From an uncultured Lachnospiraceae bacterium (GTDB lineage Bacteria; Bacillota; Clostridia; Lachnospirales; Lachnospiraceae), in contig CACZNZ010000051.1 in the NCBI GenBank assembly GCA_902782625.1, positions 1-10,978 of the forward strand: a stretch of 10,978 bases of DNA. Direction: 5' to 3'. Below, in pieces: positions 931 through 10,903 of this stretch. Position 1 is the stretch's first letter. The number at the start of each line of letters is the position of its first letter. A program made the position numbers and the translations under genes. The notes under the pieces were generated by a model. That model searched no databases and was not told the DNA's origin. It was given only the letters and a program-made list of their open reading frames with translations.

Positions 931-1227
931 TTATGAAAGGTTTTTTTTATGTAGGATTGTCCGTGCCATATTCATTAATTCGTCACTTATGGACTGCTCC
1001 ATTACTACATCGTTTACTTCAGGCAGTGCGGTTGTTAGTTTTTCTTTTACAAGCATTTCCAGTGTGAGGTCCGCGGAAGGACATCCGGAACAGGCACCGG
1101 TAAAGCGGATATGTGCAACACCTTCTGAATAATCCAGCAATGTCAGATTACCTCCATGTGCAAGCAGAGAAGGACGTACTTGTTCTTCCAATATTTGTTC
1201 AATTTTATCTTTCAGTTCTGCGTTCAT
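931..1227 (-). CDS. Nfu-type iron-sulfur cluster scaffold/carrier (NifU C-terminal domain)
   Basis: This 98-residue protein is a stand-alone NifU C-terminal (Nfu) domain, a family that holds a labile [4Fe-4S] cluster between subunits and passes it to target enzymes in the cytoplasm. Residues 1-25 contain the typical IEQILEEQVRPSLLAHGG opening, in which the HGG is characteristic, and the cluster ligands sit in GACSGCPSA (C46 and C49, a C-x2-C pair). The length is normal for the short form. The start is set by a strong GAGGAGG site 9 bases upstream of the ATG. It is the last gene of the minus-strand operon, 39 bases after the acyl ligase. No other Fe-S assembly gene is near, so it may serve an enzyme of this cluster, the obvious one being the divergently encoded [4Fe-4S] dehydratase; that link is inference. 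The family call is secure. Confidence 0.9.
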   Translation of the reverse strand: MNAELKDKIEQILEEQVRPSLLAHGGNLTLLDYSEGVAHIRFTGACSGCPSADLTLEMLVKEKLTTALPEVNDVVMEQSISDELMNMARTILHKKNLS

Positions 1228-1266: not shown

Positions 1267-2769
1267 TTAAACTAATATAGCATTGTAATTGATTTTTTCG
1301 GAGCCGGTTCGCGGAATCTTCGGAAGAAAACGAATATGGAATACGGAATACCGAAGACTGGTCTGTTTTCTGAGAAAAGCAAGAGTTGCCTCTGTAAGCA
1401 GTTTTGTATTCTCGGAATCCGGGACCGGATCACAGATCAACGCAATATAGATCATATCATCTTTTCCGGCACATAAAAAGGATTCCGGGCGAGGTAAATG
1501 AAGGGAAGAGATTTCTTCTGCTGTAGATAATATGATGGATATATGAGAGTTCAGGAGCTCTTCCAGTTCGTCCAGACTGACACGCTTGCCGGAAACCTTT
1601 ACAAATCGTTTTTTTCTGCCGATGATATAATAATACCCATCCTTATCACAGTGGGCCAAATCTCCAGTATAGAGGATGCCTTTGTTTTCATCACCTTTTT
1701 GCAGATCATCAGCATTTTCGGCATATCCCAGAAAAACATTTTGACCGGAATAGATTAATTCGCCGTTTGGCTGATTTGCGCAGGTTTCTGAAGACTCTGC
1801 AAGCAGTGTAAAGGATCCTCCCGGAATAGCTTGACCAATGCTTCCCGGCTTTTTCAGACACATATCCGGAGGAAGATAGCTCATTCTTGCAGTAGCTTCT
1901 GTCTGACCATACATGATAAAGAAACGTATTCCTTTTGTATTTGCCCATTTTGCGTATTCAATCTGTAATTCTTTGGGCAGTTTTCCGCCAGCCTGTGTCA
2001 TGGTGGTCAGAGAAGGAAGTTCCATATCAAAAAAACCTATTCGTTTTAAAAGTGTGTAAGAATTCGGAACCCCGGCAAAAGAGGTTGCCTTAGCTGATCG
2101 AAAAAAATCCCAGAAGCGAATATCCAATATCCCATAGTCTGTTATCAGCAGAGAAGAACCTTTTAGTAGATGGCTGTTGATGACAGAAAGGCCGTACGTA
2201 TATTCCATAGGCAGTGATGTGATCGGGCGATCTTGTTCGGTTATTTCCAGATAAGTGGCGATCGATTCAGCGTTGCTCTGCAGATTTTTTCGGGAAAGGC
2301 GTACCAGCTTTGGACTGCCGGTACTACCGGAAGTGGAAAGAAGAAGAGCAAGATCAGAATGCAGTATAGGACTTTGCAGTCCGGTTGCAACAAGAGACCA
2401 CATAGAATTTGTCCACAGCATCTTTCCGCAGGACGATGAAGGATCCGTTCTTTCTGTTGGTAAAAGAATGGCTCCCGGTTGGTATCGTTTCATCAGAGAA
2501 TGCAGAGGTTCTTTTGCAATAGAGGAAGGGAGCAGAAGAGGCACACAGCCTTTTTGCAGGCATCCTAAATAGACTGTGATTGGAATGTAGTCGTTTTTAC
2601 AGAGCAGAAAAAGAAGTGAGCCGGCGGGAACACCCTGCAGAATGAGATCCTGCAGATCCCACATAGCGGAATAAGTCAGATGTTCTCCGTCTGAACACAA
2701 GAAAACTGTTTTGTCAGCAAACATCGGATTTCTGGAAAAAAACCAAGTTGGTACAGTTCCTTTTGACAT
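1267..2769 (-). CDS. AMP-forming acyl ligase (ANL superfamily)
   Basis: A 500-residue member of the acyl-CoA synthetase/adenylation-domain superfamily. It should activate a carboxylic acid with ATP to an acyl-AMP and pass it to a thiol, either CoA or a carrier protein. Visible motifs in order are STSGSTGSPK (145-154, phosphate-binding loop), YGQTEATARM (287-296), YTGD (367-370, ribose-binding Asp), GRKKRFVKVSGKRV (384-397, hinge and C-terminal subdomain), and PRTGSEK near the end, where K492 is the expected catalytic lysine. All key residues are present, so it looks active. It follows the LuxE-LuxC fusion by 13 bases and has its own AAAGGAG site 7 bases before the ATG. With an acyl carrier protein four genes earlier, it may be an acyl-ACP ligase rather than an acyl-CoA ligase. 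Substrate cannot be read from the sequence. Confidence 0.9.
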   Translation of the reverse strand: MSKGTVPTWFFSRNPMFADKTVFLCSDGEHLTYSAMWDLQDLILQGVPAGSLLFLLCKNDYIPITVYLGCLQKGCVPLLLPSSIAKEPLHSLMKRYQPGAILLPTERTDPSSSCGKMLWTNSMWSLVATGLQSPILHSDLALLLSTSGSTGSPKLVRLSRKNLQSNAESIATYLEITEQDRPITSLPMEYTYGLSVINSHLLKGSSLLITDYGILDIRFWDFFRSAKATSFAGVPNSYTLLKRIGFFDMELPSLTTMTQAGGKLPKELQIEYAKWANTKGIRFFIMYGQTEATARMSYLPPDMCLKKPGSIGQAIPGGSFTLLAESSETCANQPNGELIYSGQNVFLGYAENADDLQKGDENKGILYTGDLAHCDKDGYYYIIGRKKRFVKVSGKRVSLDELEELLNSHISIILSTAEEISSLHLPRPESFLCAGKDDMIYIALICDPVPDSENTKLLTEATLAFLRKQTSLRYSVFHIRFLPKIPRTGSEKINYNAILV

Positions 2770-2782
2770 CAGAGAACTCCTT

Positions 2783-5059
2783 TTACGTTACGATTGGCTG
2801 TGACAGTTTACAAATCAAGTCTTTGCCGTCCCAAACCGGGTCAAAGATTAGTGCTTCTCCCACTGATACCACCCGCAGAGCATCATATGTACGGGAACGC
2901 TGAAGAAGGCCTTGCATTTTATGCGGTTCAAATCCATAAACCGTTACGGTCTGCAGCTTATCACCCAGGTTGGCAGGAAGGAAAGCCAATGAAGACAGAA
3001 CCATTTCAAAAAACAGACCGCATCGTGCTTCCAGCATTTCCCATGGAACACAAGGAATAAGAGAAGGAGAGATGTCAATAGTCCATTGCGGCGGTAATTC
3101 TGCTGTCATTACCAGATTCCCTGCGTAGAAGCGTACAGAGAGACCAGGGATGTCCAAGGCCTGCCGCACCAGTAGACTATATTTTGACAGGATTGAATAG
3201 TCATCCGGATGGTAACGCTTCTGTACGATAGCAGCCAAAGTCTGCCACCAACGCCAACGGATGTTCTGTACATATTCTGGAGATTCACCTGTCCAGAAAA
3301 CAATTATTGGACTGGAACAGGCATTCTGGTCTGCATCATAGGTATCTTGGTAAAAACGGCAGCACAGCTGATACAGTTCTTCGTCAGTAAGAGAATCGAT
3401 GGATTCTGCAGACAGGATACATATAGAATAACGATCCGGAAACATCAGATCAAAACTGTCGGCCTTGGCTGGGATTCCATGCAGTTTCCGGACAGTTTTA
3501 TCTCCTCCCCATAATAGACGCGCATCAGCTGTTGCAGAAAGTTTGCGGAATATTCGATCGGAGCGCGGAAAGCGTATTATGGCTGTGCGACGATAAAGAT
3601 CAGCATAATTCGGCAGCTGTAACAGTGCATTGATTTTTTTGCAGAGAAGATCAGTAGCAGGATGGGGATATTCACTGATCCGGATGGTCACGGTACAGCC
3701 GGCCAACAAGACAACAGCCCAGTTATAGGCAAATAGGACAGGCATATTGGAGGGGGCTGAGATAAGTACATGGCCAATACCGCGTCTCTGTTCAGGATAT
3801 CGACTCTGCAGTTGTTCCAGATGGGCTCGTCGTAGCCAGAAGCCAAATTGAATAATATCCGGAAAAGCACGACATGAGGGATCATGCATCAGATCACTGG
3901 AAAGAGTTTCCAGACAGTTCAAGGTGTGTTCCTGAAAACTCTTATTAGTGCCTTCAGATTGCGTCATGCTTCCGGCCATGCAAATGATTTTTTGATCTTT
4001 TGACGAAATCGGGGCAGTAGCGGCAAAGAAAGTGTCACTGCAGCCGCGAATTTCAGCATGAGGTACACGACCATCAATGGCAAAATATCGTCCCTTCCTG
4101 CCACAGGGACAGTCGTCTTCGCCAAGGATACGTCCCTGATCTTCTGTCAGGATCCGATGGCCGGGATAAGAGGTTGGGAGAAGAGAAGAAACCGTAAGGA
4201 TTCCCTGTTCTCCCTGAAGACATTCTGAGAAATCTACTGGATGAAGCGCCTGAATGTCTGACCATTGACTGGTGTGCAAATGTCCATATTTGCATTCCAT
4301 AAAGATGCTTCCCAGCTGTTCGGCCATACCATAGTAATTGAAGACCTGTCGGATTCCGGCGGCCTGTTCCAGTTCAGATTTAAACTGTTCCGGAGAAACA
4401 GATAAGTCGGTCATCCTTTTCCAACCACCTCCATGGATCAATACAGAATGAGAAAAATCCGGATGAAGTCCGGCATTAAGAAGCGGAAGGGTGAAATATT
4501 GCCGGATCATATAGGTAAACCCGAAAAGAAGAGTTTTTTGTCCACGATGCTCTTCTGCAAAACGAAGTATCGTTTCTATGTCCAGAGTCAGATCTTCATG
4601 AAGTGCCCAGGTACGGGAAGAAGAAAAAAGTGCAAATCCTGCTATGCCGGCTCGGCGTGCACTGAAATCTGCGGTGGGAGAAATGGTTCTTCTGGTATCG
4701 ATGATCAGCATGGGAAGACGTTTGCCACCAAGAAAATCCTGTAGAATCAGATATAATACCTGCTGCTGGCTTTCTGCTGCTTCGGAATCCAGAAAAATGC
4801 GGGAAGGTTGTTGTCCGCTGGTTCCGGAAGAAATTACTTCCCGAACGATTGTGTTTTTTGGGACGCTGAACAACTCGTGATCCCGGAAGGCGGAGACAGG
4901 AAGAAGGGGTATGTCGGAAGAAAATGCCTTGCATAGATTTCGGTAGGGAATACAACCTTGTCGATGCTGTTCTGAAAGCGCAGACAGTTGGTTTTTGAAG
5001 CGCATTGTTTTTTCGGACTGCATTTGTGAAAACGGTTTGTCGTTATAAAGGGGTTTCAT
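2783..5059 (-). CDS. LuxE-LuxC fusion: acyl-protein synthetase plus acyl reductase
   Basis: One 758-residue protein carries both halves of a fatty acid reductase. Residues 1 to about 345 match LuxE-type acyl-protein synthetase: SSGTSGQQPSR (77-87, ATP loop), YGMAEQ (243-248), a CPCG pair (317-320) and the closing GR-x-PHAEIRGCSD (330-342), whose C340 is the likely acyl-accepting cysteine. From about 400 to the end it matches LuxC acyl-CoA reductase: SAPSNMP (434-440), LLWGGDKTVR (515-524) and DQNACSSP (577-584), with C581 the expected catalytic cysteine. In luminous bacteria LuxE activates the fatty acid and LuxC reduces it to aldehyde with NADPH as separate subunits. No lux luciferase genes are in view, so the aldehyde has another use here. 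The LuxC part is somewhat short. The ATG has AAGGA about 12 bases upstream, a long spacing, but no better start is visible. Confidence 0.85.
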   Translation of the reverse strand: MKPLYNDKPFSQMQSEKTMRFKNQLSALSEQHRQGCIPYRNLCKAFSSDIPLLPVSAFRDHELFSVPKNTIVREVISSGTSGQQPSRIFLDSEAAESQQQVLYLILQDFLGGKRLPMLIIDTRRTISPTADFSARRAGIAGFALFSSSRTWALHEDLTLDIETILRFAEEHRGQKTLLFGFTYMIRQYFTLPLLNAGLHPDFSHSVLIHGGGWKRMTDLSVSPEQFKSELEQAAGIRQVFNYYGMAEQLGSIFMECKYGHLHTSQWSDIQALHPVDFSECLQGEQGILTVSSLLPTSYPGHRILTEDQGRILGEDDCPCGRKGRYFAIDGRVPHAEIRGCSDTFFAATAPISSKDQKIICMAGSMTQSEGTNKSFQEHTLNCLETLSSDLMHDPSCRAFPDIIQFGFWLRRAHLEQLQSRYPEQRRGIGHVLISAPSNMPVLFAYNWAVVLLAGCTVTIRISEYPHPATDLLCKKINALLQLPNYADLYRRTAIIRFPRSDRIFRKLSATADARLLWGGDKTVRKLHGIPAKADSFDLMFPDRYSICILSAESIDSLTDEELYQLCCRFYQDTYDADQNACSSPIIVFWTGESPEYVQNIRWRWWQTLAAIVQKRYHPDDYSILSKYSLLVRQALDIPGLSVRFYAGNLVMTAELPPQWTIDISPSLIPCVPWEMLEARCGLFFEMVLSSLAFLPANLGDKLQTVTVYGFEPHKMQGLLQRSRTYDALRVVSVGEALIFDPVWDGKDLICKLSQPIVT

Positions 5060-5122: not shown

Positions 5123-5764
5123 TTACAGTGATTTATTATGATACATATACGGGCTGCCATGCCCTGGGAAGAGAGTCATGCCAGGATGCAGAATTTTTTC
5201 AAACCAGGGTTCTGTTTTTTGGAGATAGTCAGTTTTGCTGCTACCCGGCAGATCGAGATTAACAGGCATATCAGGTAGAAAATAATCACCAGTAAAAAGG
5301 AATCGATTGTCCATCAGAATAGTAGAACTTCCCGGAGAATGCCCCGGACAAAGCTGCATATGAAAAACATGACCTTGCCATCTCAGATCTGTTTGTGTTT
5401 GAAAAACAACCTCGCATGGACGGCATATAAATGGATCATGTCTATCTTTGCAGACATTGCCCGTATAGGAATATGCCAGTAAATCATAAACAGGTGAGAG
5501 GTTTCCCCGGGCATCCCCTATACGGTAGCTACAGATATCTGAAGAAACAACAGGAGCACCGGTCATGCTGCGGATCTCTTCCAGCCCACTGATATGATCA
5601 ACATGCTCATGTGTGAGCAGGATCATATCCAGTGTCCAGGAGTGGGAAAGAAGCAGTTTTCTGGCTTTTTCTGCGTCGCCAGCATCGATCAAGAGGGCTG
5701 AGGATCCTTCTGCGATTAAATAACTATTACTTGTTGTTTCGTTTGAACACAAATGTATAATCAT
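5123..5764 (-). CDS. metallo-beta-lactamase-fold hydrolase
   Basis: A 213-residue protein of the glyoxalase II-like branch of the metallo-beta-lactamase fold. The metal ligands are all visible: THEHVDH (H52, H54, D56, H57), PGHSPGS (H142), TGD (D160, the bridging aspartate) and the final PGHGS (H202). It probably binds two zinc or iron ions and hydrolyses a thioester or ester in the cytoplasm; there is no signal peptide. The start is supported by GCGGAG 6 bases before the ATG. It sits 39 bases after the acyl carrier protein gene, and a perfect CTGCTG/CAGCAG hairpin lies in that gap (5781-5796). In this operon an acyl-thioester hydrolase releasing product from carrier protein or CoA is a sensible guess, but the fold covers many reactions and the substrate is not evident. 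Confidence 0.85.
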   Translation of the reverse strand: MIIHLCSNETTSNSYLIAEGSSALLIDAGDAEKARKLLLSHSWTLDMILLTHEHVDHISGLEEIRSMTGAPVVSSDICSYRIGDARGNLSPVYDLLAYSYTGNVCKDRHDPFICRPCEVVFQTQTDLRWQGHVFHMQLCPGHSPGSSTILMDNRFLFTGDYFLPDMPVNLDLPGSSKTDYLQKTEPWFEKILHPGMTLFPGHGSPYMYHNKSL

Positions 5765-5803: not shown

Positions 5804-6040
5804 CTATAGGGCCACACCATATTCTGCAAGGATTTCCAAACCTTTTTCATAAGATGAAAACCGAAGAACATCGAGGTTTTCCATGCGGATATGGAAGGCT
5901 TCTTCCAGTTCGGCAATAATGTCCATGTGTGTCATGGAGTCCCAGGCGGTAATACCGTGATATTTCAATCCGGGCAGTTCTTCTTGGGTCACCTTCAGAT
6001 TTTGCATCATTATGTTATCGTATTTTTCTTTAGACGTCAT
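5804..6040 (-). CDS. acyl carrier protein
   Basis: A 78-residue acyl carrier protein. The four-helix pattern is clear, and the phosphopantetheine attachment site is WDSMTHMDIIAELEEAF with S35 as the modified serine. The motif has DSM rather than the DSL of housekeeping fatty-acid ACPs, and the preceding HGITAWDS resembles carrier proteins of specialised clusters (acyl ligase plus reductase) rather than AcpP. A phosphopantetheinyl transferase is not in the window. The ATG overlaps the end of the upstream MaoC gene by 11 bases, with an AAAGGAG site 7 bases upstream inside that gene, so the two are translationally coupled. It is likely the carrier for the acyl group activated by the ligase at 1267-2769 and reduced by the LuxE-LuxC fusion (inference from context). 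Confidence 0.88.
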   Translation of the reverse strand: MTSKEKYDNIMMQNLKVTQEELPGLKYHGITAWDSMTHMDIIAELEEAFHIRMENLDVLRFSSYEKGLEILAEYGVAL

Positions 6041-6749
6041 TTTTGCGCTCCTTTACAATGAAGAATCGTTTACTCATCAGTTCTGTAAATTGTCCGTGAA
6101 TCACTTCCGTTCCATCTGAATTTCTGCAGATGCCATTAAACGTTCCAACATAGGTACTGCCATGTTCTATGCAGGATGTAAATTTGATTTCCGCAGTGAT
6201 CGTATCTCCTGGGAATACCGGTGCTTTATAATGTATATGTTCTTCCAATAATACAGTGCCAGAACCGGGCAGTTCCGTTCCCAGAATGGCAGAAAACAAA
6301 GTGCCAACAAAAATACCATGCACAACAGGTCTGCGAAAGACGGTTAGATCGGCGATAGCAGGATCCAGATGAATGCCGTTCCTATCATGTGAGAGCTCGA
6401 CAAAAGAAAGCAGATCTTTTGTAGTAAAGGTGCGGCTTCGAGATACGCACATACCGATGGTAAGTTCTTTTTTTGACATATCCGTGTCTTGTTTTAATAT
6501 GGTACGAGAATGCTTTTTTACAAACAGGACATCTTTTGGAGAGGAAACCAACAACACTTTTCCGGCCCGCAGCATATCTATATGGACACAGCGGTTAGGA
6601 CATCCGCATATCACGATCCATACAGGGCAAAACAAAGCGGTATCATAAACCGGATGTATGTCCGGAAGATCGGATAATAATTCTGTGACGGCCTGTGCTC
6701 TGTCATATCGTGGGTTACAACCGCCACAGTATTTGATACCGAGGTTCAT
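6030..6749 (-). CDS. Cys-motif N-terminal domain fused to MaoC-like hydratase
   Basis: First gene of the minus-strand operon. I choose the ATG at 6749 (239 residues) over the one at 6776, because GGAGGCG lies 8 bases before the former and nothing useful precedes the latter. Residues from about 95 form a MaoC/(R)-enoyl-CoA hydratase hotdog domain. FVELSHDRNGIHLD (113-128) holds the catalytic Asp122 and His127 with Asn124, and HIHYKAPVFPGDTI is typical further on. The N-terminal 80 residues are a separate domain with YCGGCNPRYDR (C8, C11) and ICGCPNRC (C48, C50, C54), an array that could bind a metal or Fe-S cluster. I know similar cysteine-motif proteins occur in Clostridia but cannot name a function. 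Met91 begins the MaoC part, so an internal start is conceivable. The hydratase would add water to an enoyl-CoA or enoyl-ACP. Confidence 0.8.
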   Translation of the reverse strand: MNLGIKYCGGCNPRYDRAQAVTELLSDLPDIHPVYDTALFCPVWIVICGCPNRCVHIDMLRAGKVLLVSSPKDVLFVKKHSRTILKQDTDMSKKELTIGMCVSRSRTFTTKDLLSFVELSHDRNGIHLDPAIADLTVFRRPVVHGIFVGTLFSAILGTELPGSGTVLLEEHIHYKAPVFPGDTITAEIKFTSCIEHGSTYVGTFNGICRNSDGTEVIHGQFTELMSKRFFIVKERKNDV

Positions 6750-6832
6750 ACTGTATCGCCTCCATTCCTTTGCCATATGGGAGACAGATTTCAGATGCTG
6801 GGATTCCGAAGAGAAATCCCATTATTTTTATA

Positions 6833-6848
6833 TGCAAATATGATGCCA
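6833..6848 (-). promoter_or_regulatory. sigma-54 promoter of the minus-strand operon
   Basis: Read on the minus strand the element is TGGCAT-CATAT-TTGCA, with the invariant GG and GC spaced exactly as in -24/-12 promoters. Transcription would start near 6822, leaving a 73-base leader before the ATG at 6749. The same TGGCAT-N5-TTGC form occurs in the divergent dehydratase promoter. Confidence 0.72.
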
Positions 6849-6996: not shown

Positions 6997-7012
6997 TGGC
7001 ATAATTCTTGCT
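6997..7012 (+). promoter_or_regulatory. sigma-54 promoter of the dehydratase gene
   Basis: TGGCAT-AATTC-TTGCT, preceded by AAAAAT, has the -24 GG at 6998-6999 and the -12 GC at 7010-7011 with correct spacing. The predicted start is near 7023, giving a 111-base leader. Confidence 0.75.
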
Positions 7013-7133: not shown

Positions 7134-8585
7134 ATGGCACTCAAAACCGGAGCCGAATACATCGAATCCATCCGCAGCATGAAAATGAATATTTATATGT
7201 TTGGAGAAAAGGTCGAGAATCCTGTTGACAATCCCATTTTACGGCCATCTCTGAATTCTGTCCGTATGACATATGATCTGGCACAGATGCCGGAATATGA
7301 GGATCTGATGACAGTTATTTCTCCAATCACCGGAGAGCGGATCAATCGGTTCACACATATCCATACAAGCACGGAAGACCTTATGAATAAAGTTAAAATG
7401 CAGAGGCTAATGGGACAGAAAACAGCAGCCTGCTTTCAGCGTTGTGTTGGTATGGATGCATTCAATGCTGTATTCAGCACGACTTTCGACTGTGATGCTG
7501 TTCATGGTACAAAGTATCACGAAAACTTTTTGAAATTCCTGAAATATGCACAGGAGAACGATCTGACGGTCGACGGAGCTATGACAGATCCGAAAGGTGA
7601 CCGCAGTAAAGCACCACATGATCAGGAAGATGCTGACATGTTCCTGCATATTGTTGAGAGAAGGGAAGATGGTATTATTGTACGCGGTGCTAAAGCACAT
7701 CAGACAGGTATCATCAATTCTCAGGAAGTGATCGTTATGCCGACACAGGCTATGGGCGAGGCGGATGTCGATTATGCTGTAGCATTTGCTGTTCCGGTTG
7801 ATACGGAAGGAATTACCATGATCATCGGGCGCCAGTCCTGTGATACCCGCAAGCTGGAAGGCGCTTCTATGGATACCGGCAATCCGGAATTCGGCGGAGT
7901 CGAAGCACTTACTGTTTTTGATGATGTTTTTGTTCCTAATGACAGGATCTTCCTCTGTGGTGAATATGAATTTGCGGGTGTATTAGTAGAACGGTTTGCA
8001 GGTTATCACAGACAGTCCTATGGTGGCTGCAAAGTTGGTGTCGGTGATGTTTTAATTGGGGCGGCAGCTCTGGCTGCAGATTACAATGGCGCAAATAAAG
8101 CTTCTCATATAAAAGATAAACTGATTGAAATGCAGCATTTGAATGAGACGCTGTACGCTTGCGGTATCGCCTGCTCTGCGGAGGGACATCCGACAGCTTC
8201 CGGAAATTATCTAATTGACCTTCTGCTGGCTAACGTATGTAAACAGAACGTTACCCGATTCCCGTATGAAATTGCGAGACTGGCAGAAGACATCGCCGGT
8301 GGATTGATGGTCACCGCTCCGTCAGAGAAGGATTTCCGGGCGGAAGTTACCGGCCCGATCGTAAAGAAGTACCTGCAGGGTGTGGCGTCTGTTTCCACAG
8401 AAAACCGGCTGCGGATTCTTCGGCTGATAGAGAATCTGACTCTCGGCACAGCAGCTGTCGGTTATCGCACGGAATCCATGCACGGAGCCGGTTCCCCACA
8501 GGCGCAGCGCATTATGATCTCCCGTCAGGGTAACCTGGCTATGAAGAAACAACTGGCGAAAGCAATCGCGCATATAGAGGAGTAA
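7134..8585 (+). CDS. abfD: 4-hydroxybutyryl-CoA dehydratase / vinylacetyl-CoA delta-isomerase
   Basis: This 483-residue protein matches the Clostridium aminobutyricum AbfD enzyme along its whole length as I recall it. AbfD converts 4-hydroxybutyryl-CoA to crotonyl-CoA by a ketyl-radical mechanism using FAD and a [4Fe-4S] cluster; it also isomerises vinylacetyl-CoA. The cluster ligands are all present: C100 and C104 in CFQRCVGMDAF, H292 and C299 in YHRQSYGGC. So are residues known to matter in AbfD: T191 in KAHQTG, E257, Y296, K300, and E447 in YRTESMHG. This separates it from flavin hydroxylases of the HpaB family, which lack the cysteines. It is about seven residues shorter than the reference near 405-420, away from the active site. 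AAAAAAGGAGG ends 6 bases before the ATG. Expression is from the sigma-54 promoter at 6997. A related but different hydroxyacyl-CoA substrate cannot be excluded. Confidence 0.93.
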   Translation: MALKTGAEYIESIRSMKMNIYMFGEKVENPVDNPILRPSLNSVRMTYDLAQMPEYEDLMTVISPITGERINRFTHIHTSTEDLMNKVKMQRLMGQKTAACFQRCVGMDAFNAVFSTTFDCDAVHGTKYHENFLKFLKYAQENDLTVDGAMTDPKGDRSKAPHDQEDADMFLHIVERREDGIIVRGAKAHQTGIINSQEVIVMPTQAMGEADVDYAVAFAVPVDTEGITMIIGRQSCDTRKLEGASMDTGNPEFGGVEALTVFDDVFVPNDRIFLCGEYEFAGVLVERFAGYHRQSYGGCKVGVGDVLIGAAALAADYNGANKASHIKDKLIEMQHLNETLYACGIACSAEGHPTASGNYLIDLLLANVCKQNVTRFPYEIARLAEDIAGGLMVTAPSEKDFRAEVTGPIVKKYLQGVASVSTENRLRILRLIENLTLGTAAVGYRTESMHGAGSPQAQRIMISRQGNLAMKKQLAKAIAHIEE

Positions 8586-8613: not shown

Positions 8614-8640
8614 CAATACCGGGGTCTATCCCCGGTATTG
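8614..8640. terminator. strong hairpin between convergent genes, overlapping the regulator's stop
   Basis: CAATACCGGGG (8614-8624) and CCCCGGTATTG (8630-8640) form a perfect 11-bp stem with a 5-nt loop that contains the regulator's TAG stop (8626-8628). It lies 29 bases after the dehydratase stop and is probably a shared end for the converging transcripts. The six Ts precede it on the plus strand, and no U-tract follows on either strand, so it is not a textbook intrinsic terminator; it may work as an RNA 3'-end stabiliser. Confidence 0.55.
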
Positions 8641-10692
8641 ATTGTAATCGATATGGTACAGTTCCAGTTTACGGTATAAGGTTCGACGGCTGATACCAAG
8701 CAGGCCGGCGGCTTCACGGATGTTGCCGTGAGTGAAGGACAGTGCCTCCTGGATCTGATGATTTTCCCGCTCCTGAATAGAAAAAGGTTTACCATCTTCG
8801 GGCTGGGAAACGTTGTCAGAAATACCGTCTGGAGTGGCAGGGGCAGATTGCCGGCCGGCGGGAGTAGTTCGTGTGAATATATTACCGATTCCAAAATAGG
8901 CAGAGGTATCTTGTGCAGGAACATATTCCTGTATTTCACGCGGCAGGCAAGCAGGGGTGATCCATCCGTCAGGTGTGATATAAACAGCGCGTTCCATTAC
9001 ATTTTCCAACTGACGGACATTTCCCTCCCAGGGATAACGTAGCAGGAGGGAAAGGGCATCTTCGGACAATGTAGCGACCCGGCCGGATCCCGTATTTGCT
9101 GCATACTTTACCAGGAAGAACTCAGAGAGAATACGAATATCTTCGCCTCTTTCACGAAGCGAGGGTATTTTTATATTAAAGACATTGAGACGGAAATACA
9201 AATCTTGTCGAAACTGATGATCGCTGACCAGATGCTCAAGATTTTGATTGGAAGCACTGATAATACGTACATTGATTCTTTTGGACTTGCGTGCTCCAAT
9301 ACGTTGCACCTCTCGATTTTGGAGTACGCGCAGCAGCGCCACCTGTGTTTCGAATGACATGCCGTCGATTTCATCCAGAAAGATAGTGCCTCCGTCTGCC
9401 AGTTCAAATTTTCCTGCAGCACCCTCTTTTCGGGCACCGGTAAAGGAGCCGCTTTCATAGCCAAAAAGCTCTGATTCAATTAGAGTTTTAGGAATCGCTC
9501 CGCAGTTGACAGCAATAAAAGGATTGTTTCGCCGTGCACTGGCATTATGGATTGACTGTGCAAACAGTTCTTTTCCAGTGCCGCTTTCTCCCTGCAGAAG
9601 GACTGTGGCATCGTTAGTAGCCGCAATCTGTGCCAGTTTGATGGTATCGCGGATCTGAGGAGATTCTCCAATGATGTCCTGAAAAGAAAAATGAGCATCA
9701 TTGCCCAAAATATGATTGACACGCTGATGCAGTACAGAGAGTGGTACAAGCTGCATGACGTATTCCAATGGATTTGCTTTCTTTACAGACAGAGAAACAA
9801 ACTGATGATGAAACTCATCGGTTAATTGCACCGCTTTGTCTTGAATGCCGTTTCGGAAAGCTGATTCGGAAAGGGTATTTTTATCGATCAGATCAAAAAC
9901 CGGACGTTTTTGTAATTGCTCCGCAGGAATTTGCAGAAGATCCGTCAGACAATGATTAAAGGTTGTGATATGCAGATCCTGGTTCAGCAGAGCGACGGAA
10001 TTTGGAAAAGTTTCAATGATCAGATCAAGTTTTTCGGTTAAGAGAGATTGCTGATCCAACAGTTCTTTGAGATGGATCTGGCGGGAAATAGCATCCGCAG
10101 CTGCAGCGACAAGCCCGACGGTGTGTGCTGAGACGTTTTCAGCCATTCCCGAAAGACAGACGACTCCGCCAATTCTTCCACTCGAAAGAATAATAGGGGC
10201 ACCGGAACAGGCCCAGTCGCTGTGCACTTCAAAATAGTGTTCATTTCCGTATACCTGGAGAGGTTGTCCGGTAGTGAGGACGGTACCGACTCCGTTCGTG
10301 CCAAATCGTTCCTCACTGCGGTTTGCTCCTGCGACAAACAGAGTATCTTCAGAGTATTTCTTCAGATTCTCATCACCCCGCATAAACAGAATATAACCTT
10401 CTTCGTCAGACAAGCTCAATAAAAACCCGGAACCTTGTATGTGTGTATATAATTCTTCCAGATAGGAGAAAGCTATATTGCATAGCACAGGACGTGCCAG
10501 TATACGTTGTTGGAGTGCTGTATCAGAGAGAGGCGTTTTATCTACGCCTTCCATTGGAACGCCATTTTTACGACATCGCAGCCAGGAACTCAAAATGAGC
10601 GGGCGGACGACACCCTCCGGAATAGGAAGTCCGTTCCGCAGACATTCCCGTGCCTTTCGAATTTCTTCTTGACTATACATGTTTGTCCTCAT
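8626..10692 (-). CDS. sigma-54-dependent transcriptional activator, AcoR-like
   Basis: A bacterial enhancer-binding protein of 688 residues. An AcoR-type start ([17 protein letters not shown], 30-46) leads into a GAF-like sensor (about 75-208, with [10 protein letters not shown]), then a PAS-like segment (about 223-323). The AAA+ domain follows, with Walker A GESGTGKE (368-375), the sigma-54 contact loop GSFTGA (415-420, Ser for the usual Ala), Walker B GGTIFLDE (434-441) and the RQDLYFRL region. A Fis-type helix-turn-helix closes it (about 644-683, [21 protein letters not shown]). It should bind enhancer sites and use ATP to open sigma-54 promoters in response to a small ligand; the ligand is unknown. 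Start: ATG at 10692 follows GAGG by 6 bases; ATG at 10680 follows AGGA and is equally possible. The open frame runs on to 10893, but that part lacks homology and crosses the promoter region. Confidence 0.92.
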
Positions 10693-10711
10693 TTCTTGCC
10701 TCTTTTTTCTC

Positions 10712-10740
10712 AGTATATCCCATGATGTGAAAAAAGTAAA
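10712..10740 (-). promoter_or_regulatory. sigma-A-type promoter of the regulator gene
   Basis: On the minus strand, TTTACT (10740-10735), a 17-base spacer and TATACT (10717-10712) form a good housekeeping promoter. The start would be near 10705, only about 13-25 bases before the two candidate ATGs. This also argues against the longer reading frame, which would begin upstream of the promoter. Confidence 0.55.
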
Positions 10741-10760
10741 TTGAACGTGAAAATGTGCAT

Positions 10761-10791
10761 ATAAACATGAGCCATACTGGCGCATGTTTAT
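10761..10791. repeat. long inverted repeat in the control region
   Basis: ATAAACATGAGCC (10761-10773) and GGCGCATGTTTAT (10779-10791) are complementary at 12 of 13 positions around ATACT. It differs from the CACATGTG sites and lies between the regulator's promoter and the activator site at 10803. It is a candidate operator for a second regulator or for autoregulation; as RNA it would fold into a hairpin. Confidence 0.5.
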
Positions 10792-10802
10792 GTAAAAAAA
10801 TG

Positions 10803-10822
10803 GCACATGTGACAAATGTGAC
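10803..10822. promoter_or_regulatory. upstream activator site 3
   Basis: GCACATGTGACAAAT (10803-10817) is identical to 6883-6897, and the following bases add a second half-site (ATGTGAC, 10816-10822). The core centre at 10807.5 is about 106 bases upstream of the predicted start of the gene at 10965. It is the main evidence that this gene and the divergent cluster share an activator. Confidence 0.68.
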
Positions 10823-10887
10823 CCTCCAAAAAGAAAAATGAAAACGGAAATCACCCTGTTTTCCGTTGATTCAGGCTTGCTGAAAAA

Positions 10888-10903
10888 TGGCACGGTATTT
10901 GCA
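10888..10903 (+). promoter_or_regulatory. consensus sigma-54 promoter
   Basis: TGGCACGGTATTTGCA matches the -24/-12 consensus TGGCACG-N4-TTGCA at every defined position. The start would be near 10914, giving a 51-base leader to the ATG at 10965. Confidence 0.85.

Follow-up and report, generated by a model that had tools for sequence, protein, structure and literature searches.

A fused LuxE-LuxC protein encoded beside a 4-hydroxybutyryl-CoA dehydratase gene in an uncultured Lachnospiraceae bacterium

The fused protein and its two halves

At the center of this study is a gene from an uncultured Lachnospiraceae bacterium (GenBank assembly GCA_902782625.1, contig CACZNZ010000051.1), whose product of 758 amino acids (aa) unites a LuxE and a LuxC domain in one chain. 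The window, i.e. the whole stretch of DNA analyzed, is the complete contig of 10,978 bases, taken from a genome of 2.84 Mb in 639 contigs that is 76% complete. In the direction of transcription, the minus strand encodes a YCGGCN-MaoC protein, an acyl carrier protein (ACP), a metallo-beta-lactamase-fold hydrolase, LuxE-LuxC, an AMP-forming ligase and a NifU-like protein; a gene for 4-hydroxybutyryl-CoA dehydratase (HBD) diverges from these presumably co-transcribed genes. In the Lux system, LuxE is acylated with ATP, the acyl group is passed to LuxC, and reduction takes place with NADPH. The sequence-only reading of this stretch had located the fusion at positions 2783-5059. These coordinates hold, and the strand of the gene is minus: the frame comprises 758 codons with zero stops, and the plus-strand translation is riddled with stop codons.

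2783..5059, minus strand: fused LuxE-LuxC, 758 aa (stop-free frame; Pfam domains; fused ortholog in genome G687)
4028..5044, minus strand: LuxE domain, residues 6-344, predicted to activate the acid (Pfam: PF04443, E=3.1e-38; 7xc6 chain E)
4814..4831, minus strand: ATP loop SSGTSG, residues 77-82 of the LuxE half (from the sequence)
4040..4042, minus strand: C340, predicted acyl-accepting cysteine of LuxE in RGCSD (aligned to LuxE of 7xc6)
3950..4027, minus strand: linker joining the two domains, approximately residues 345-370 (alignment of five fused proteins)
2786..3949, minus strand: LuxC domain, residues 371-758, predicted NAD(P)H-dependent acyl-thioester reductase (Pfam: PF05893; profile match to 7xc6 chain A)
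3317..3319, minus strand: C581, predicted catalytic cysteine of LuxC in QNACSSP (invariant in 11 of 11 aligned LuxC)

Hidden Markov model searches placed the two domains in the two halves, as had been proposed from the letters. The LuxE half scores 132.1 bits against PF04443, above the curated cut-off of 24.9. The motifs RGCSD and QNACSSP begin at residues 338 and 578, which puts the cysteines at positions 340 and 581; both are kept, as is the ATP loop, and both align with LuxE and LuxC of the fatty acid reductase structure 7xc6. C340 pairs with the cysteine of a GCS motif near the end of LuxE (chain E, E=6.8e-9, single-sequence search), which we take to be the acyl-accepting residue. The Pfam match of the LuxC half is partial (residues 420-592, profile positions 82-243 of 401 only; E=1.8e-14, 53.9 bits versus a cut-off of 21), and LuxC of 7xc6 was not retrieved by the single-sequence search with the fused protein. 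The half is nevertheless complete, because a profile of 11 LuxC parts, all of which match PF05893, spans positions 74-397 of the 399 of 7xc6 chain A (E=6.6e-21). The catalytic cysteine (C211 of LuxC part A2) is among the invariant columns of this profile. Both halves are divergent, since the NCBIfam model of the luminous long-chain LuxE (NF052244) gives 43 bits against an equivalog cut-off of 550 and the NCBIfam scan of the fused protein returned no LuxC match.

According to a motif search, an SSGT-type loop and RGCSD occur together in 41 of 46 LuxE open reading frames (ORFs). The exceptions are L042, L044 and L083 with one motif unmatched, L080, a fragment of 194 codons, and L081, which is of the canonical type. 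The LuxC motif pattern fits 41 of 44 sequences, and the remaining three (L044, L049, L083) keep the cysteine in variant motifs. The structure modeling suggested with the sequence-only reading was carried out with AlphaFold on a 5-row alignment, but the model of the fused chain is too poor for use (mean predicted local distance difference test score, pLDDT, 53.7; predicted template modeling score, pTM, 0.41). In line with the claim that the gene occurs without a luciferase, no PF00296 match was found in the window's genome, at its completeness of 76% in 639 contigs.

Fused and split forms across genomes

The fused protein served as query against four overlapping genome sets, drawn from the order (295 genomes), the class (391), the family (250) and the phylum (398). 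Matches at E<=1e-20 were tallied in 55 distinct genomes, in part covering LuxE only. A fused frame is present in seven of them (the window's genome, G687, G548, G425, G351, G757 and G861): in G757 the presence of the two domains was confirmed with Pfam, and in G861 the fusion is read from an open frame of 831 codons only. In the phylogeny of LuxE (LG+G4, one search), the fusion state requires three changes, one for the window and G687 (support 100/98), one for the group of G548, G425 and G351, and one for the distant canonical protein of locus L081. Hence, the fusion is not unique, and a view of it as a rarity is not supported. Separate LuxE and LuxC genes are found in two named loci and on plasmids of Rhizobium and Deinococcus. 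A match in Nonomuraea (H1, L062), whose record is unannotated and in which the simple ORF caller gave neither LuxE nor LuxC, was left out.

The split pairs offer a simple view of how such fusions arise. Taken at their maximal length, the ORFs of luxE and luxC share 4 to 125 bases in 35 of 36 pairs (upper bounds, as start codons were not fixed), and the frame offset of luxC relative to luxE is identical in 34 of the 36. An insertion or deletion of one or two bases would therefore fuse the genes, and repeated fusion is understandable. By the same token, a small error in a read or in the assembly would suffice to join two overlapping genes. As an account of the window this is hardly credible: G687, a separate assembly from another genus, carries the same fusion over residues 10-753 at 45% identity, without stops and with a linker of similar length in the five-protein alignment, and it is the sister of the window's protein at 100/98. 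We consequently reject a frameshift or assembly artefact, and the claim of a single gene is upheld.

Two further proteins with joined domains were noticed. In L002:7833-9713, one of the two named loci with separate genes, LuxC is joined to a GNAT acetyltransferase domain. L081:8363-10864, from the same family as the window, encodes a canonical LuxE-LuxC fusion of 833 aa (LuxE E=4.3e-109, LuxC E=1.5e-79) unlike the window type, near genes resembling KAS III and an iron-dependent alcohol dehydrogenase (Fe-ADH).

The existence of this canonical fusion in the family, together with the homology to LuxE and LuxC, raises the question of whether the window encodes a classical fatty acid reductase whose long-chain aldehyde goes into plasmalogens or similar lipids. 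Given the 43 of 550 bits on the luminous long-chain model and a locus in which no lipid gene was recognized and C4 enzymes are linked instead, we consider this quite unlikely.

Linkage to the dehydratase and sigma-54 sites

The neighboring features of the window are as follows.

6030..6776, minus strand: YCGGCN thiol domain fused to a MaoC-type hydratase (Pfam: PF01575, E=1.8e-15, residues 113-208)
5804..6040, minus strand: ACP with WDS attachment motif (Pfam E=0.031, below cut-off; WDS conserved without exception among 30 aligned rows)
5123..5764, minus strand: metallo-beta-lactamase-fold hydrolase, probable thioesterase (Pfam: PF00753, E=2e-18)
1267..2769, minus strand: AMP-forming acyl ligase (LIG), which probably loads the ACP (Pfam: PF00501, E=2.8e-36)
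931..1227, minus strand: NifU-like iron-sulfur protein (Pfam: PF01106, E=1.1e-22)
7134..8585, plus strand: HBD, AbfD-like, divergent to the operon (1u8v, E=9.4e-236)
8626..10893, minus strand: sigma-54 activator with GAF, PAS, AAA+ and Fis domains (Pfam: PF00158, E=4.3e-69); the true start probably lies downstream of the one listed
6833..6848, minus strand: sigma-54 promoter-like site of the LuxE-LuxC operon, TGGCATCATATTTGCA (1 mismatch; chance 0.0025 per 300-base upstream region)
6997..7012, plus strand: sigma-54 promoter-like site of the HBD gene, TGGCATAATTCTTGCT (2 mismatches; chance 0.004 per 300-base upstream region)

The ACP, acyl ligase and hydrolase had been listed correctly from the sequence; what had been missed are the divergent HBD gene, which provides the best hint to the substrate, and the sigma-54 sites. 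The CxxxC and HxxxxxxC motifs of HBD align with those of 1u8v and presumably contain the ligands of the [4Fe-4S] cluster. The enzyme is oxygen-labile, which fits an anaerobe.

The YCGGCN domain (6507-6776, minus strand) precedes the MaoC part and was found in 11 proteins of the loci, mostly with MaoC. It accompanies a FabA-like domain in L083, stands alone with 92 aa beside HBD in L091, and is cut by the contig end in L090; a weak hit (E=0.19) hints at a thioredoxin-like Rdx/SelW relationship.

Our survey of gene neighborhoods covers 41 loci with a LuxE match above 200 bits, L081 excluded, and considers genes within 9 kb as detected with a simple ORF caller and BLAST. Nine of the 41 loci are of the dehydratase type. 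This number includes L073 of G709, for which the linkage is inferred: the HBD of G709 is encoded on a different contig, which breaks off shortly behind MaoC and the hydrolase. The two types of loci differ in their other neighbors, since transketolase is found near none of the nine HBD-type loci versus 17 of the 32 others, a short-chain dehydrogenase/reductase (SDR) near one versus 24, NeuB near none versus four, and DegT near none versus eight. Homologs of LIG occur in 36 of the 41 loci (9/9 HBD-type, 27/32 others); an ACP passes this filter in six of nine and 22 of 32 loci, respectively. The ACP of L064, which shares bases with a different frame, was identified separately.

The phylogeny of LuxE agrees with this division. 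The 48-row tree consists of the earlier rows and four added loci; 11 of its rows are HBD-linked (L073 by inference), nine of which form one exclusive clade (support 87/90), and L077 and L078 represent a second, separate pair. The HBD label changes twice on this tree, compared with a mean of 10.0 and a minimum of 7 in shuffled labels, and none of 300 shuffles gave as few changes; in the earlier 44-row tree, with L073 unlabelled, three changes are needed. The nine-row clade, in which the neighbors are conserved, spans six genera and two classes; one genus, represented by two genomes, does not belong to the window's class. These out-of-class loci (L093, L094) show the order NifU, MaoC, ACP (L093 only), metallo-beta-lactamase-fold hydrolase, LuxE, LuxC, LIG, RpoN and activator, with a divergent HBD. 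Among the 250 genomes of the family, HBD was detected in 20 (E<=1e-60), LuxE in 17 (E<=1e-20), and both in six (G000, G687, G709, G715, G731, G878). HBD and LuxE are adjacent in four of the six, probably also in G709, and not in G878. In L086, L087 and L091, HBD lies near a transketolase-like pair, possibly another source of succinic semialdehyde.

Loci of the other type recall the flagellin glycosylation islands, for which ACP, a FabG-like reductase (SDR), an AMP ligase, LuxE and LuxC have been described and fatty-acid or liposugar parts suggested (PMC7874193, PMC4875605). The islands share the core of ACP, ligase, LuxE and LuxC with the window; they differ in their sugar context and FabG-type reductase, and the available portions of these papers mention neither a dehydratase nor a fusion. 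Conceivably, the module supplies surface glycans or flagellin with an acyl or aldehyde building block, as seems to be true of many LuxE/LuxC relatives. The LuxE/LuxC genes of L092 lie beside NeuB, a cytidylyltransferase and a Maf-type protein, those of L039 beside a cytidylyltransferase and an MptE/Maf-type protein, and relatives occur in a polysaccharide cluster of Deinococcus and on a Rhizobium plasmid with a glycosyltransferase and transketolase. For the window, though, such a role is very doubtful: none of the nine HBD-linked loci contains NeuB, transketolase, DegT, Maf or an LpxA-like gene (Maf occurs in just one of the 32 others), and the main HBD clade is separate. No sugar enzyme, in particular no NeuB/Pse or Maf, was recognized among the eight window proteins scanned; glycosyltransferases were not searched systematically.

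With a stricter sigma-54 pattern (GG and GC fixed), applied to 300-base upstream regions, sites were found in 10 of 20 regions: two each in the window, L064 and L093, and one each in L094, L083, L084 and L090. The chance probability is 0.001-0.012 for each, as estimated from mononucleotide shuffles. No such site precedes NifU in L094 and L090, HBD in L083, or MaoC in L084. RpoN (Pfam: PF04552) is present in seven of 12 locus-bearing genomes (G687, G709, G825, G546, G1265, G1185, G731) and was not found in G093, G193, G262 and G715; G709 contains a truncated RpoN piece right after the ligase (C124). In L093:6983-8257 and L094:5467-6738, rpoN directly follows the LuxE-LuxC-ligase genes beside the activator, and a second rpoN exists elsewhere in each genome, so that the locus seems to carry its own sigma factor. 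Furthermore, a perfect consensus, TGGCACGGTATTTGCA, lies at 10888-10903 (plus strand) of the window; because it points towards the contig end, another target under the same control may lie beyond it.

Proposed reaction and comparison with known systems

We propose, with a probability of roughly 0.55, that the protein is a single-chain, ATP- and NAD(P)H-dependent LuxE-LuxC reductase, which converts a C4 acid, served by a dedicated ligase and ACP, to an aldehyde. By homology, the LuxE half would adenylate a carboxylic acid with ATP and take the acyl group on C340; the acyl group would then move to C581 of the LuxC half, where NAD(P)H would reduce it to the aldehyde. The acid is probably short (C4); the ligase and ACP of the same presumed transcript would handle it, and the metallo-hydrolase could free it in a LuxD-like role. 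Because ligase and ACP are present, we presume that the acid is carrier-loaded at some stage, and the adjoining HBD and MaoC indicate C4 thioesters. The same locus, switched by sigma-54, would also interconvert 4-hydroxybutyryl-, crotonyl- and 3-hydroxybutyryl-thioesters by means of HBD and MaoC. Since the fused gene sits in a conserved, switch-controlled C4-acid cluster, the aldehyde probably serves metabolism and not light; a role other than light, as suggested in the sequence-only reading, is very likely.

Several observations weigh against this proposal. No aldehyde-using enzyme was recognized in the window or in L064 (some small flanking ORFs of L064 were unscanned), and the only loci with a nearby Fe-ADH are L093, L094 and the three of genus g7. 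Domains, residues, gene order, linkage and promoter-like sites are observations, from which co-transcription, the C4 substrate, the direction of the reaction and the fate of the aldehyde are deduced. For a fermenter, moreover, ligase and LuxE together are costly in ATP. The hypergeometric probability of the co-occurrence of HBD and LuxE in the family (0.0009; 0.0038 without the window) ignores relatedness. Six of the HBD loci examined (L085-L089, L091) have no LuxE-LuxC, and L090 is cut by the contig end; the module thus is accessory. As for regulation, the whole window contains eight consensus matches with up to two mismatches against 3.5 expected by chance (3 of 200 shuffles reach eight), so that a lone site with two mismatches is weak. 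No sigma-54-like site was found in six regions of L077, L078 and L035, nor RpoN (PF04552) in the window's 76%-complete assembly, and a regulator of the LysR type is encoded in the three g7 loci instead (one scanned).

As a rather unlikely alternative, the ligase might anchor a dicarboxylate, e.g. succinate, on the ACP by one end; LuxE would activate the free carboxylate and LuxC reduce it to give 4-oxobutyryl-ACP. This thioester of succinic semialdehyde leads into 4-hydroxybutyrate, whereas the semialdehyde of sugar-type loci would be consumed by SDR or transketolase. Such a model would explain why an ACP ligase travels with a second acid-activating enzyme (36 of 41 LuxE loci), and its product would supply the adjoining 4-hydroxybutyrate step. 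The best solved relatives of LIG include an oxalate-CoA ligase (rank 1) and a malonyl-CoA synthetase, and R295, following a TEAT motif at what we take to be a pocket position, is found in at least 90% of 36 LIG. However, the resemblance of LIG is general (192 PDB sequences match, with a peptide synthetase at rank 2), and R295 is no more than a probable pocket residue. A 4-hydroxybutyrate dehydrogenase was recognized neither in the window nor in L064, searches of G000 and G687 gave no match at E<=1e-30, and the route would consume four ATP equivalents per semialdehyde. In G709, two homologs of this dehydrogenase share the contig of LuxE-LuxC, at distances of about 12 and 18 kb. A replacement of SucD by LuxE-LuxC was also considered and dropped. 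SucD with more than 50% identity is present in none of six LuxE-LuxC/HBD genomes outside g7 and in one of 15 HBD genomes without adjacent LuxE-LuxC; as close SucD is rare in both groups, no pattern emerges.

A more general version, which we regard as unlikely, extends the reduction of the far end to LuxE-LuxC outside luminous bacteria at large. An ACP-borne C4 dicarboxylate would become a semialdehyde-ACP, which sugar-type loci would reduce (SDR) or extend by a ketol unit (transketolase) to form unusual glycan acyls, and which the locus of the window would direct to 4-hydroxybutyrate and crotonate. The flagellin glycan of Aeromonas piscicola AH-3 contains an unassigned 102 Da unit and a pseudaminic derivative of 376.14 Da (PMC7874193); a dihydroxybutyryl group, C4H6O3, would fit these masses (102.03; 376.148), as a numerical match only.

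Our proposal of a C4 acid reductase can be compared with three further known systems. The logic of the luminous Lux system, i.e. thioesterase, LuxE and LuxC, is that of the window. Both halves are homologous to the Lux reductase (7xc6) and the catalytic cysteines align; in contrast to it, the window encodes one distant chain together with ligase and ACP, and no luciferase was found. The locus of 4-hydroxybutyrate and gamma-aminobutyrate fermentation (AbfD, 1u8v) shares with the window an HBD that matches over nearly its full length with the motifs kept, whereas the window's contig has neither SucD nor 4-hydroxybutyrate dehydrogenase. The third system is the XanR regulon of Clostridium, predicted in 2019 to be under sigma-54 control, with abfD-nifU-hyp-ach-golB and acp-caiC-luxEC (PMC6615313, Table 1). 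Like the window, it combines abfD-nifU with acp-caiC-luxEC, -24/-12 sites and an activator. It was assigned to 'Butyrate/Butanol synthesis', and the available part of that article states neither a mechanism for luxEC nor that luxEC is one protein; the window, unlike the regulon, has the thiol-MaoC protein and the metallo-hydrolase inside the LuxE-LuxC operon. We can only guess at the counterparts of hyp, ach and golB, which might be the thiol-hydratase, a CoA-transferase and the hydrolase.

In consequence, the occurrence of LuxE-LuxC in dark bacteria and its link to abfD were known before, from the flagellin islands (PMC7874193, PMC4875605) and the Clostridium regulon (PMC6615313); a claim that LuxE and LuxC without luciferase are new is not supported. 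As far as literature searches show, the additions made here are the fused form, the HBD clade across classes and the division into two types of loci; among titles and abstract openings, we recognized no description of a fused LuxE-LuxC. Genes for LuxE and LuxC in dark bacteria carry labels of bioluminescence or fatty-acid metabolism. The tie of one clade to HBD and sigma-54 sites provides a concrete class of substrates to test, for which the single chain is convenient. If the far-end model were true, one module would also explain the puzzling gene sets in flagellin glycosylation islands.

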